DNA of 32,234 nucleotides from Marinilabiliaceae bacterium (lineage in GTDB: Bacteria > Bacteroidota > Bacteroidia > Bacteroidales > Marinilabiliaceae), in assembly GCA_027010905.1 (NCBI GenBank), contig JALVBA010000101.1, forward strand, positions 1 through 32,234. The letters run 5' to 3'. Below the pieces are notes generated by a model, which saw only the letters and a program-made list of their open reading frames with translations, was not told the DNA's origin and searched no databases. Shown here one piece after another: positions 8,570 through 12,561 of the stretch; positions within the stretch are counted from its first letter, which is position 1; each line of letters opens with the position of its first letter. The position numbers were made by a program, and so were the translations under genes.

Positions 8570-10087
8570 ATGTCAGATAATAAAGTTCGTGTGCGATTTG
8601 CACCCAGCCCAACAGGGCCGTTACATATAGGTGGTGTCAGAACCGCCCTTTTCAACTACCTTTTTGCAAAAAAGAATAACGGCCAGTTCATCCTACGTAT
8701 TGAAGACACTGATCAGACCAGATATGTTCCGGGAGCAGAAGAGTATATTATTGAAGCTCTCGAGTGGTGCGGGCTGGAATTTGACGAAAAGCCGGGTACA
8801 AGCTGTGGCTTTGGCCCCTATCGCCAATCGGAGAGAAAGGATATTTACAAAACATTTGCTAACAAGCTAATAGAATCAGGACATGCCTACTATGCCTTTG
8901 ACACTGCCGAGGAACTGGATGCTAAAAGAGGTAAGTTTGAGAAGCAAAAGAGAGTATTCACATACAATGCTCAATCCAGAGTGGTAATGAGAAACTCACT
9001 ATCGCTACCCGAGGATAAAGTGAAGGAGCTGTTAAAAGGTGACTTTGTAATTCGCTTTAAAATGCCCGACAGTGAGGATATAGAGGAGGTAGATATGATA
9101 AGGGATAGAGTGGTTTTTAATACTCGCGACCTCGATGACAAGGTGTTGTTTAAATCAGACGGCATGCCTACATATCATCTGGCAAATATTGTTGATGATC
9201 ATTTTATGAAGATTTCATATGTTATTCGTGGTGAGGAGTGGCTCCCCTCTCTCCCACTACACATACTGCTTTACCGGGCTTTAGGATGGGACTCTCCCCG
9301 CTTTGCCCACCTACCGTTAATACTTAAACCAACAGGCAAAGGTAAACTTAGTAAACGCGATGGCGACAAAGCAGGATTCCCTGTCTTCCCTCTTAAATGG
9401 AAAGATCCAAAGACAGGTAAAACAGCCTCAGGCTATCGTGAAGAGGGGTACTTTCCAGAAGCATTTATTAATATGTTGTCGATGCTGGGGTGGAATCCGG
9501 GAACAGAGCAGGAAATTTTCACTCTTGAGGAGTTGACTCAACTATTCTCACTCGACAGAGTTAACAAGTCGGGAGCAAGATTTGATCCGGAAAAGGCTAA
9601 GTGGTTCAATCAGCAGCATCTGTTACAAAAAACGAACAAGGAGCTGGCTTCACTCTTTAAGGAGGAACTTACAGAGAGGGGGATCGAGGCAACTGATGAA
9701 TACACCGAAAAAGTTGTGGCGTTAGTAAAAGATAGGGTTGCTTTTGTAAAGGAGATTTGGGATCAGGCGAGCATGTTTTTCATTGCTCCCGATAGCTACG
9801 ACCCAAAGGTGGTCAAGAAACGCTGGAAAGGGGATGTGCCGGCTTTCATGGGTGAACTGACTAGCCACCTGCAAAATGTAGATGGTTGGAAAGGAGATAT
9901 GATTAAAGAGACAATCACTCAACTTATCGAAACCAAAGGTCTTGGATTCGGGCTGGTGATGAATGCGCTCAGGCTGGCTCTTGTGGGCGGTGGTTTTGGC
10001 TCTGACCTGATGACTATTGCTGAGATGATTGGGAAGAGTGAAACAATCGAACGAATAAAAACTGCTGTTGAGAAGATTGCAGTTTAG
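8570..10087 (+). CDS. gltX: Glutamyl-tRNA synthetase
   Basis: HIGH-type motif RFAPSPTGPLHIGGVRTALFNYLFA and KMSKS-type motif KLSKRDGD. Confidence 0.97.
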   Translation: MSDNKVRVRFAPSPTGPLHIGGVRTALFNYLFAKKNNGQFILRIEDTDQTRYVPGAEEYIIEALEWCGLEFDEKPGTSCGFGPYRQSERKDIYKTFANKLIESGHAYYAFDTAEELDAKRGKFEKQKRVFTYNAQSRVVMRNSLSLPEDKVKELLKGDFVIRFKMPDSEDIEEVDMIRDRVVFNTRDLDDKVLFKSDGMPTYHLANIVDDHFMKISYVIRGEEWLPSLPLHILLYRALGWDSPRFAHLPLILKPTGKGKLSKRDGDKAGFPVFPLKWKDPKTGKTASGYREEGYFPEAFINMLSMLGWNPGTEQEIFTLEELTQLFSLDRVNKSGARFDPEKAKWFNQQHLLQKTNKELASLFKEELTERGIEATDEYTEKVVALVKDRVAFVKEIWDQASMFFIAPDSYDPKVVKKRWKGDVPAFMGELTSHLQNVDGWKGDMIKETITQLIETKGLGFGLVMNALRLALVGGGFGSDLMTIAEMIGKSETIERIKTAVEKIAV

Positions 10088-10114
10088 CAGACATACAATA
10101 TAGTTTTAGTGACA

Positions 10115-10142
10115 GGGTGGCTTTTTTTAAAGAAAGCCACCC
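10115..10142 (+). terminator. Hairpin after gltX, possible terminator
   Basis: GGGTGGCTTT (10115-10124) / AAAGCCACCC (10133-10142), perfect 10-bp stem 28 nt after the gltX stop; no U-tract follows. Confidence 0.5.
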
Positions 10143-10166
10143 CATCAGCAGTCGTTAGATTCTGAC
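10137..10166 (+). repeat. 30-bp direct repeat, copy A
   Basis: CCACCCCATCAGCAGTCGTTAGATTCTGAC; 27/30 identical to 10379-10408 by manual comparison. Confidence 0.85.
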
Positions 10167-10315
10167 TCGGAATTTAATGTTGTTACACCTGATAATTTTA
10201 TTGAGTTCCTAGGGATGGAAGGTTGAACACCTATCGGTGTTCTCTTCTCTATTTTGACATTTCAATTCCGTATGTTTCACATACGACTATTTTTGTTCAA
10301 CCCTTTTCAAGGGTT
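10162..10315 (+). pseudogene. 3'-terminal remnant of a second AAA_14/DUF4143 ATPase gene plus its downstream hairpins
   Basis: In-frame translation of 10165-10227 reads DSEFNVVTPDNFIEFLGMEG*, matching the C-terminus of the intact ATPase (DSEFNIVTPDNFLEFL*). Homology continues through the two downstream hairpins to 10315, matching 11731-11886. Confidence 0.85.
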
Positions 10316-10378
10316 GCTTCTGGTATTCAGTGGTAGCCATTACATTTCTACAACCCAACTCCAAAACAATACATCTCT

Positions 10379-10408
10379 CCACCCTGTCAGCAGTCGTTAG
10401 ACTCTGAC
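10379..10408 (+). repeat. 30-bp direct repeat, copy B
   Basis: CCACCCTGTCAGCAGTCGTTAGACTCTGAC; partner of 10137-10166. Confidence 0.85.
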
Positions 10409-10457
10409 AGCGGTGCATGGACGAAAATAATGTTGCTATCAATACCGCTGACAGGGT
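10381..10457. repeat. 77-bp inverted-repeat element
   Basis: ACCCTGTCAGC (10381-10391) and GCTGACAGGGT (10447-10457) are perfect reverse complements. Internal CTGACAGCGGT/ACCGCTGACAG forms an alternative stem with one mismatch. Confidence 0.75.
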
Positions 10458-10553
10458 CTCTGACCACTGTCAGGGTTCAGTTATGTTTATCCTATCTACC
10501 TTTTTTTAACTACTCTATTGAAACCATCTTCTTTCGACTTGCCCATATTTACT

Positions 10554-10613
10554 TAATTAGGCAACTTGACTTGCCTAATTATGCCTAATTAGGCAAGTCA
10601 GGTTGCCTAATTA
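10554..10613. promoter_or_regulatory. Nested palindrome, putative operator upstream of the ATPase
   Basis: TAATTAGGCAACTTGACTTGCCTAATTA - TGCC - TAATTAGGCAAGTCAGGTTGCCTAATTA: 28-bp arms, reverse complementary except one position. Four copies of TTGCCTAATTA/TAATTAGGCAA; perfect 14-bp palindrome TGCCTAATTAGGCA at 10582-10595. Confidence 0.8.
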
Positions 10614-10633
10614 GGAATTTTACCATACCTTTG
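10603..10633 (+). promoter_or_regulatory. Bacteroidetes-type promoter for the ATPase gene
   Basis: TTG at 10603-10605 (-33), 20-nt spacer, TACCTTTG at 10626-10633 (TAnnTTTG, -7); CDS starts at 10650. Confidence 0.65.
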
Positions 10634-10649
10634 TTAAAAATTTCAGGAC

Positions 10650-11783
10650 ATGAATACCCAATGGATTAAACGATTTTATGAAGAATCAGAAGAGATACTG
10701 CTCCAAAAAGGCAAAGTCTTTGTTCTATTTGGTCCTCGCAGAGTTGGCAAAACGATGTTGATTGAAAAGCTAATCTCACAATTTAATGGTAGTATCTATT
10801 CAGGCACAGGTGACAACTTCGATTTGCATGAGATTCTATCATCACAGAGTTTACAGAAGATAAAATCAGCACTGGGGAGATACGATCTGATATTTATTGA
10901 TGAGGCACAACTGATACCAAACATCGGTTATTCAATAAAACTACTAATCGACAATATGCCGGAAAAGATTATAATCCTTACCGGCTCTTCCTCCTTTGAT
11001 TTGTCAGGACAGGTGGGAGAACCTTTAACAGGCCGTCAAAAGCAGAAGAAACTTTTTCCGGTTTCTATAGTTGAATTAAAGAAACAGTATGGGGGTATGT
11101 TTATATTTGAACATCTCGAAGATTTTTTGATTTTTGGCACATACCCTGAAGTGTTAACACAAGACAGTATTATTGATAAGAAAGAGTATCTGCTATCTAT
11201 CCGAGACTCATACCTTTTGAAGGATATTTTCACACTAAAGGAGCTGAAGTATCAGAATAAGATATTTGACCTATTGCGCTTACTGGCCTTTCAAATAGGG
11301 CATGAAGTTTCGATGAATGAGTTAGCTAGCAGTCTAGGTATTGCAAAACAGAGTGTAGACAGGTATCTCTCTTTACTTGAGAAAGCATTTATAATAAAAC
11401 GACTTGGGGGATTTTCACGAAATCTGAGGAATGAGATAACCAAGTCGTCACGCTACTACTTTTTTGATAATGGTGTGCGAAACGCAATTATCAACAATTT
11501 TAACTCCAGAAACAACCGAAACGACATAGGTATGTTATGGGAGAATTTCATGGTAATGGAACGATTAAAAAAACAGGAGTATCAGCGATTATTTTCTAAC
11601 AACTATTTTTGGAGAACTTATGACCAGAAAGAGATTGACCTAATTGAAGAGAGAAACGGGAAACTTTACGCATTCGAATTCAAACACGGCAAAAAATCAA
11701 AAGAGCCCAAACAGTGGAGGAGTGCGTACCCTGACTCGGAGTTTAATATTGTTACACCGGACAATTTTCTTGAATTTCTATAG
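10650..11783 (+). CDS. AAA_14-type ATPase with C-terminal DUF4143 (PD-(D/E)XK-like) domain
   Basis: Walker A GPRRVGKTML, Walker B LIFIDEAQ, sensor-type ILTGSSSF, HTH-like MNELASSLGIAKQSVDRYLSLLEKAFIIKRL, C-terminal EIDLIEERNGKLYAFEFKHGKK (D...ExK). Confidence 0.93.
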   Translation: MNTQWIKRFYEESEEILLQKGKVFVLFGPRRVGKTMLIEKLISQFNGSIYSGTGDNFDLHEILSSQSLQKIKSALGRYDLIFIDEAQLIPNIGYSIKLLIDNMPEKIIILTGSSSFDLSGQVGEPLTGRQKQKKLFPVSIVELKKQYGGMFIFEHLEDFLIFGTYPEVLTQDSIIDKKEYLLSIRDSYLLKDIFTLKELKYQNKIFDLLRLLAFQIGHEVSMNELASSLGIAKQSVDRYLSLLEKAFIIKRLGGFSRNLRNEITKSSRYYFFDNGVRNAIINNFNSRNNRNDIGMLWENFMVMERLKKQEYQRLFSNNYFWRTYDQKEIDLIEERNGKLYAFEFKHGKKSKEPKQWRSAYPDSEFNIVTPDNFLEFL

Positions 11784-11795
11784 GGATAGGAGGTT

Positions 11796-11886
11796 GAACA
11801 CCTTTCGGTGTTCTCTTCTCTCTTTTTAAATTTCAATTCCGTATGTTTCACATACGGCTATTTTTATTCAACCCTTTTCAAGGGTT
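11796..11886 (+). repeat. REP-like hairpin cluster after the ATPase gene
   Basis: Perfect stems GAACACC-tttc-GGTGTTC (11796-11813), CCGTATG-tttca-CATACGG (11839-11857, then CTATTTTT), AACCCTT-ttc-AAGGGTT (11870-11886). All present with few changes in 10225-10315. Confidence 0.85.
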
Positions 11887-11960
11887 AAGATAGCATACAG
11901 GCAATTCTTTGGTGTATTTTCTGTATTTGTAAAGAGTCACTATTTTCTATCTTTAAAGAA

Positions 11961-12048
11961 ACCGCGAAGCGGTGAAACAAAAATAGCCATAGGTGAAACC
12001 TATGGCTAAACGAATCATAAACTCACTCAACCCGTGATAACGGGTTGA
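11961..12048 (-). repeat. Inverted REP-like hairpin cluster
   Basis: ACCGC-gaa-GCGGT (11961-11973), AGCCATAGG-tgaaa-CCTATGGCT (11985-12007), TCAACCCG-tgataa-CGGGTTGA (12027-12048). AAAATAGCC flank is the reverse complement of the GGCTATTTT flank at 11856. Confidence 0.8.
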
Positions 12049-12111
12049 ACATCATCCTGCGTGAAAGTAGCATTTCCACAGGTTACCCATAACGGCTATT
12101 TATCCTTTCAA

Positions 12112-12561
12112 CTATCCCAGCAAAGACCTTACAATATTTGAAATTACTTTACCATCGGCTCTGCCGGCAAGTTTTTTAGAGACTAGCCCCATCACTCTGC
12201 CCATATCCTTCATTGAGGCAGCTCCTACCTGAGCAATCACCTCTTTAACGGCTGCCTCTACCTCCTCACGAGTCAAAGGCTCCGGAAGGAAATGATTAAG
12301 CACTTTAATCTCTGACAACTCCTTCTCAGCAAGTTCAATTCGTCCCTGCTGCTCATAAATCACAGCCACATCATGACGCTGCTTTACCATCTTCTGCATT
12401 ACTTTAACAGCTGCTTCTTCGCTAACTTCACCTGAACTACCTTTTGCTGATCGTAGTTCAAGCAACTCTTTTTTAATAGCTCTAAGTGTCTCTAAAGAGA
12501 CTTTATCACGGGCTTTCATGGCCGTTTTTATCTCGTCTGTTATTCTATCTATAAAATCCAT
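12112..12561 (-). CDS. GatB/YqeY domain protein
   Basis: 149 aa, MDFIDRITDEIKTAMKARDKVSLETLRAIKKELLELRSAKG...MGRVMGLVSKKLAGRADGKVISNIVRSLL. Confidence 0.93.
   Translation of the reverse strand: MDFIDRITDEIKTAMKARDKVSLETLRAIKKELLELRSAKGSSGEVSEEAAVKVMQKMVKQRHDVAVIYEQQGRIELAEKELSEIKVLNHFLPEPLTREEVEAAVKEVIAQVGAASMKDMGRVMGLVSKKLAGRADGKVISNIVRSLLG

Follow-up and report, generated by a model that had tools for sequence, protein, structure and literature searches.

Each PDC-S01 protein probably represses its own gene, by way of a predicted winged helix, through a private operator array in which half-sites recur with a 32-bp period. This proposal comes from sequence comparison. The basis for reading the arrays as operators was seen directly, namely the arrays themselves, their 32-bp period, their phase relative to the −7 box, their rarity upstream of other genes and the occurrence of one operator at a single place in its genome. 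The gene that carries this operator lies in a stretch of 32,234 nucleotides from a Marinilabiliaceae bacterium (GenBank contig JALVBA010000101.1), which we refer to as the window. A sequence-only reading of the window had described a 30-bp repeat and a partial gene copy beside this gene; the 32-nt-period promoter repeat of the intact gene was absent from it.

The PDC-S01 gene and its surroundings

The features of the locus are collected in Table 1. By open reading frame and Pfam, the intact ATPase gene (10650–11783) is located between gltX and yqeY. In a genome of the same genus (G002), gltX is followed by yqeY with no ATPase gene between them, and in two further genomes (G001 and G003) a different gene follows gltX, all three being compared by eye. 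Therefore, the ATPase gene was either gained in the lineage of the window or lost in the others. The interval between the ATPase gene and yqeY holds more hairpins (11945–12060), which are terminator-like on the − strand and have partial matches at contigs C61 and C178.

Table 1. Features of the gltX–yqeY interval, in window positions
Feature	Positions	Strand	Evidence
gltX-type tRNA synthetase gene, upstream neighbour	8570–10087	+	ORF; tRNA-synt_1c E 1.7e-91
Hairpin 3′ of gltX, right arm entering the truncated REP	10110–10147	+	Inverted repeat; fold z −5.2 for 10100–10166
Truncated REP, first copy of the 30-bp repeat, ending in CTGAC	10137–10166	+	90% to 10379–10408; REP family
CTGAC junction between REP and DUF4143 tail	10162–10166	+	Sequence
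Remnant, last ~16 codons of a DUF4143 gene	10162–10211	+	86% to 11731–11780
3′ hairpins of the remnant	10210–10315	+	92% to 11781–11886
Complete REP, second copy of the 30-bp repeat	10379–10420	+	Covariance model E 1.4e-15; among the model's own sequences
Inverted REP, forming a BIME with 10379–10420	10439–10478	−	Model E 3.7e-12, also a model sequence; fold z −6.1
Operator-like array, 32-bp period	10536–10615	+	Direct and inverted repeats; one place in genome
TAnnTTTG −7 box (TACCTTTG)	10626–10633	+	Pattern; TAnnTTTG in 80/101 homologue upstreams
Intact AAA_14-DUF4143 ATPase gene, PDC-S01 type, 377 aa	10650–11783	+	ORF; Pfam; PADLOC E 5.9e-142
Predicted winged-helix segment, residues 202–271	11253–11462	+	AF2 secondary structure; weak regulator matches
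PD-(D/E)XK-like motif residues, E298 to K345	11541–11684	+	95–100% conserved, 107 homologues
End of the intact gene, counterpart of the remnant	11731–11780	+	Sequence match
3′ hairpins of the intact gene, terminator-like	11781–11886	+	Fold z −6.25 for 11781–11890; terminator scan
yqeY, downstream neighbour	12112–12561	−	YqeY E 2.7e-47

The encoded protein scored above the curated cut-offs for both of its Pfam domains, AAA_14 and DUF4143 (85.8 bits against 27 and 127.2 against 28.1), and was matched over residues 6–377 by the PADLOC model PDLC04789 (PDC-S01; E 5.9e-142). As judged from its sequence, the gene matches the PDC-S01 type, with an AAA+ ATPase, a predicted winged helix and a PD-(D/E)XK-like domain; PDC-S01 is one of the commonest candidate anti-virus genes in bacteria. 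Residues G28, GKT33–35, D84, E85, E298, D330, E343 and K345 are intact, and these positions are 93–100% conserved among 107 homologues. The AF2 model (pLDDT 81) has a helix-helix-helix-strand-strand segment at residues 202–271, which gave weak HMM matches to Csa3, CasR and LexA. We predict this segment to be a winged helix (wHTH) and thus a candidate DNA-binding domain.

Foldseek matched the protein to RuvB, Orc1/Cdc6 and NLR ATPases at low TM-scores (0.3–0.4). Both Orc1/Cdc6 and RuvB are DNA-acting AAA+ ATPases with a winged helix, and the resemblance of the window protein to them lies in these matches. Unlike them, it has a PD-(D/E)XK-like C-terminus, and the functions are unrelated as far as is known. 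A sequence search for a solved full-length relative found none, with the ATPase core alone being matched; the viral structure library gave mostly AAA+ ATPases and nothing closer, and the viral contigs gave one partial relative.

A 32-bp period upstream of PDC-S01 genes

The array in the window has TTGCC half-sites at 10539, 10571 and 10603, with opposite half-sites (TTAGGCAA) at 10557 and 10589. The last TTGCC lies about 20 nt upstream of the −7 box, which we take to be the expected position of a Bacteroidetes −33 promoter element. With up to three mismatches allowed, this operator was found at one place in its genome.

Repeats of this kind were first noticed by reading the upstream sequences of homologues, for which the start codons were set by alignment. 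A direct repeat at exactly 32 bp was present in 44% of 171 homologue promoters, compared with 8% for a 33-bp repeat; the genes are related, and these and the following counts are not independent events. In 102 upstreams, a 32-bp repeat with a score of at least 9 was found in 45%, a 33-bp repeat in 6% and a 64-bp repeat in 10%, with 0–4% at almost every other offset between 8 and 74. An independent phylum-wide set of 66 distinct upstreams, which was not used to find the period and includes four loci from the window's own order, gave 44% at 32 bp, 9% at 33 bp and 15% at 64 bp.

For controls, we used 222 upstreams of other genes in the same fetched loci, where the 32-bp repeat was seen in 0.45%. 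The single control match (L063) is in a locus that was fetched for its ATPase match and may therefore itself be such a promoter. Either an array or an inverted repeat was present in 67% of homologue upstreams versus 8% of controls, and, with the thresholds chosen, about a third of the homologue genes showed neither. Among 21 plasmid homologues sampled, 18 of them from other phyla, 12 had a palindrome near the start (p<0.05), and a 32-bp array was found in Treponema saccharophilum.

For the most part, the arrays occupy the region 40–100 nt upstream of the start. Of 228 pairs of palindrome centres, 98 were spaced by 16 bp and 29 by 32 bp, the next commonest distance. The palindromes were phased to the TAnnTTTG −7 box, with a Rayleigh r of 0.40 at 16 bp and 0.50 at 15 bp, and had no phase to the ATG. 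This position and this phase are as expected for transcriptional control, which argues against the repeats being a DNA target of the ATPase-nuclease, that is a docking, cutting or immunity-marking site whose overlap with the promoter is incidental. Such a target would agree with the conserved nuclease-like residues and with the standing of the family as a phage-defence candidate, and a regular 16/32-bp lattice would suit an oligomer on DNA. However, we know of no nuclease activity for the PDC-S01 protein, and we regard this explanation as very improbable.

Operator sequences differ between genes

Single-linkage clustering of the operators chained them into one group. With average linkage, which was used instead, the arrays formed about 28–42 sequence classes depending on the cut. 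The median pairwise similarity of the arrays was the same as the shuffled median, most pairs being no more alike than shuffled DNA. Operators of paralogues within a genome had a mean similarity of 10.1, versus 8.9 when pairs of matched protein identity were taken from different genomes, and this excess was mostly due to one duplicated pair (97% identical, score 57). The members of this pair (L138 and L139, G043:C76 and C37) are recent DUF4143 duplicates whose upstreams are similar as well, so promoter and gene were copied together. In a few other within-genome paralogue pairs, the operator similarity was 12–18.

Covariation between the wHTH residues and the operator was weak (four of the top six columns in one analysis; in another, most cut-offs gave no significance), and operator similarity follows the AAA domain as well as the wHTH. 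Self-binding is the economical explanation of the arrays, because the product has a winged helix and the operator is gene-specific. With covariation weak or mostly not significant, self-binding stays an inference, as do repression by the bound protein and the cue that relieves it.

The weak covariation would also be compatible with an operator for a different host transcription factor, the winged helix of the product having some other role. An ORF starts just downstream on the same strand in 24 of the 168 genes whose downstream sequence was long enough, and one ends just upstream in 41 of the 162 with sufficient upstream sequence, which leaves some genes with a close neighbour of this kind. 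Most PDC-S01 genes are thereby without one to supply a private regulator. One shared regulator does not fit either, because the array sequences vary widely between genes, mostly between paralogues of the same genome too, and the operator of the window has a single location in its genome. We therefore think that a separate regulator is quite unlikely. It may also be that the array activates the gene rather than repressing it.

Proposed autorepression

In the autorepression that we favour, the working feature is the array itself, whose half-sites recur at 32 bp (about three turns of the helix), whose two-fold axes are typically 16 bp apart, and which reaches into the −33 region. The PDC-S01 protein, probably as oligomers and through the winged helix, would occupy this array and block its own transcription, and the gene would be kept low for as long as the protein is neither titrated nor altered in its state. 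As each gene has its own operator sequence, most paralogues in the same genome would not cross-regulate. We also considered a more elaborate version, which is speculative and on balance unlikely. Here the array would be a docking lattice. Its dyads, spaced by 16 bp, would alternate between the two faces of the helix, keep register with the −7 box and anchor an AAA+ oligomer of the PDC-S01 protein to its own promoter. Repressor, sensor and putative nuclease effector would then be a single polypeptide that is kept on DNA until phage infection releases it, and fast operator turnover would insulate the paralogues from one another.

Autorepression of this kind would resemble that of toxin-antitoxin operons (MazEF, HigBA, RelBE), in which a palindromic operator over the promoter is bound by the encoded protein. 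In contrast to those operons, the PDC-S01 gene is mostly solitary, with the ATPase, the putative nuclease and the predicted DNA-binding part in one protein. The array has a fixed 32-bp period, no antitoxin partner was found, and autoregulation is here what we propose. The paper describing PDC-S01 does not contain the words 'operator', 'promoter' or 'winged', and in the literature searched the one paper that names DUF4143 is a Thermus Argonaute study; the 32-bp arrays of PDC-S01 genes therefore appear to be undescribed in that literature. A gene-specific operator array of constant geometry predicts a role for the winged helix and gives a substrate for binding or reporter assays for each copy of the gene. 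The arrays also make the inducing signal searchable, and they offer a system for studying changes in operator and regulator specificity at a fixed spacing.

The 30-bp repeat as a REP element

The sequence-only reading had noted a 30-bp direct repeat at 10137–10166 and 10379–10408, and the two copies are indeed present, with 27 of 30 positions identical (90%). It had taken this repeat as the 5′ edge of a DUF4143 unit. By its sequence and distribution, the repeat is instead a REP element. Further copies were found on contigs C27, C334 and C346, and six strong ones surround a RAYT-type gene on C356; in the stretches read, no DUF4143 gene was seen beside any of these copies. As REP copies recur without a DUF4143 gene, the repeat was rejected as a boundary of a DUF4143 unit, and the idea that the leftover copy marks the boundaries of a mobile or amplifying unit fails at its 5′ end. 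Such a recurrence is what the earlier reading had itself named as contrary to its model. Nor was the repeat present upstream of those DUF4143 homologues whose flanks were read.

A covariance model of the REP was built from eleven aligned copies. It gave 11 matches at E≤4e-12 (nine outside the window and two inside), which are the places from which it was built, plus one match at 9e-6 on C270 and three weaker ones. The few matches point to a small family in this fragmented assembly. In the window, 10379–10478 forms a complete inverted REP pair (BIME) with a fold z of −6.1. The RAYT-type ORF (METLDSNNYYHIYNH...; L009:1743–2300, within G000:C356, L009 1500–2508) has HFH and YIHYNPV motifs, with REPs on both sides. 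It matched NF047646 (E 2.5e-16, 59.9 bits, under the curated cut-off of 80) and, weakly, Pfam Y1_Tnp (E 0.0016, also under the curated cut-off). The REP elements of the window were probably spread by a RAYT transposase.

This arrangement is like that of known REP/BIME and RAYT systems, which have interspersed palindromes, some of them in inverted pairs, on the flanks of a Y1/RAYT ORF (PMC3733652, PMC2817692). It differs from them in having about a dozen matches, albeit in a fragmented assembly, and a RAYT ORF that is below both curated cut-offs. The terminal GTAG or CGTC tag of REPs (PMC3733652) was not seen by eye at the ends of the copies aligned here.

The DUF4143 remnant and the CTGAC junction

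Duplication of the DUF4143 tail and its 3′ hairpins, as described from the sequence alone, was reproduced. The remnant tail is 86% identical to the end of the intact gene over 50 nt (10162–10211 versus 11731–11780), and the hairpin region is 92% identical over 106 nt (10210–10315 versus 11781–11886). A single local alignment gave the 15 mismatches and one 2-nt gap already reported, with a score of 120; the maximum in 200 shuffles was 17, so the match is not due to chance. The CTGAC proposed as the junction is likewise present: it closes the first repeat, and it recurs within both the second repeat and the coding sequence of the ATPase.

The remnant differs from its intact neighbour at 7 of 50 positions and from a homologue in another MAG (L050) also at 7 of 50. 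Because it is equally distant from the two, a recent tandem duplication is not supported as the sole origin of the remnant. By codon position, its differences from the neighbour number 2, 0 and 5, a pattern that would agree, in these small numbers, with divergence under selection. Compared with third codon positions in the tail (5 differences in about 16–17 codons), the noncoding 3′ flank has diverged less (8/106). Hairpins of the remnant type were not seen after the genes of the three closest homologues (L041, L042 and L050), and they have few matches in the genome, not being a high-copy family. A shared local origin is favoured, because the 106-nt flank is 92% identical in the two copies and does not follow the three nearest homologues.

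The suggested history, a tandem duplication followed by a ~1.3-kb deletion at CTGAC, thus holds up in part: a deletion of ~1.33 kb fits the map, whereas the duplication is unsupported as a recent event. Most likely, the gene was duplicated or arrived a second time, and a deletion from the REP into the ATPase gene at CTGAC then left the tail; local duplication followed by the ~1.3-kb deletion is plausible. It is doubtful that cleavage of the REP by RAYT, rather than slippage at the microhomology, deleted the first gene. The genome has a RAYT-type gene with flanking REPs and the deletion begins within a REP, but the 5-bp microhomology accounts for the junction without an enzyme. To our knowledge, there is no known RAYT cleavage site for this REP family.

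It is very unlikely that the 30-bp repeat, promoter, ATPase and hairpins formed one duplicating or mobile unit of which one copy collapsed. The two copies share 3′ hairpins that do not follow the three nearest homologues, and both 30-bp copies in the window carry a GTTAGA variant that is absent from the other aligned copies. A relative with intact tandem DUF4143 genes, as sought by the earlier reading, was also found (L238, G170:C81, same strand), but this one pair is only ~42% identical. Against a single unit, no match to either flank was seen by eye in the 63 nt that separate the hairpins of the remnant from the second repeat. The remnant is also no nearer to its neighbour than to L050, and the 5′ boundary is already contradicted by the REP copies elsewhere. 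The history of duplication and deletion is in itself of little importance.

More DUF4143 pieces consisting of the C-terminus alone occur in the window's genome (L037, G000:C62; L036, G000:C144), where head-only pieces were not seen. Near the start of another contig (L035, G000:C74, 1–440), a DUF4143 tail follows sequence that resembles the 3′ end of a group II intron.
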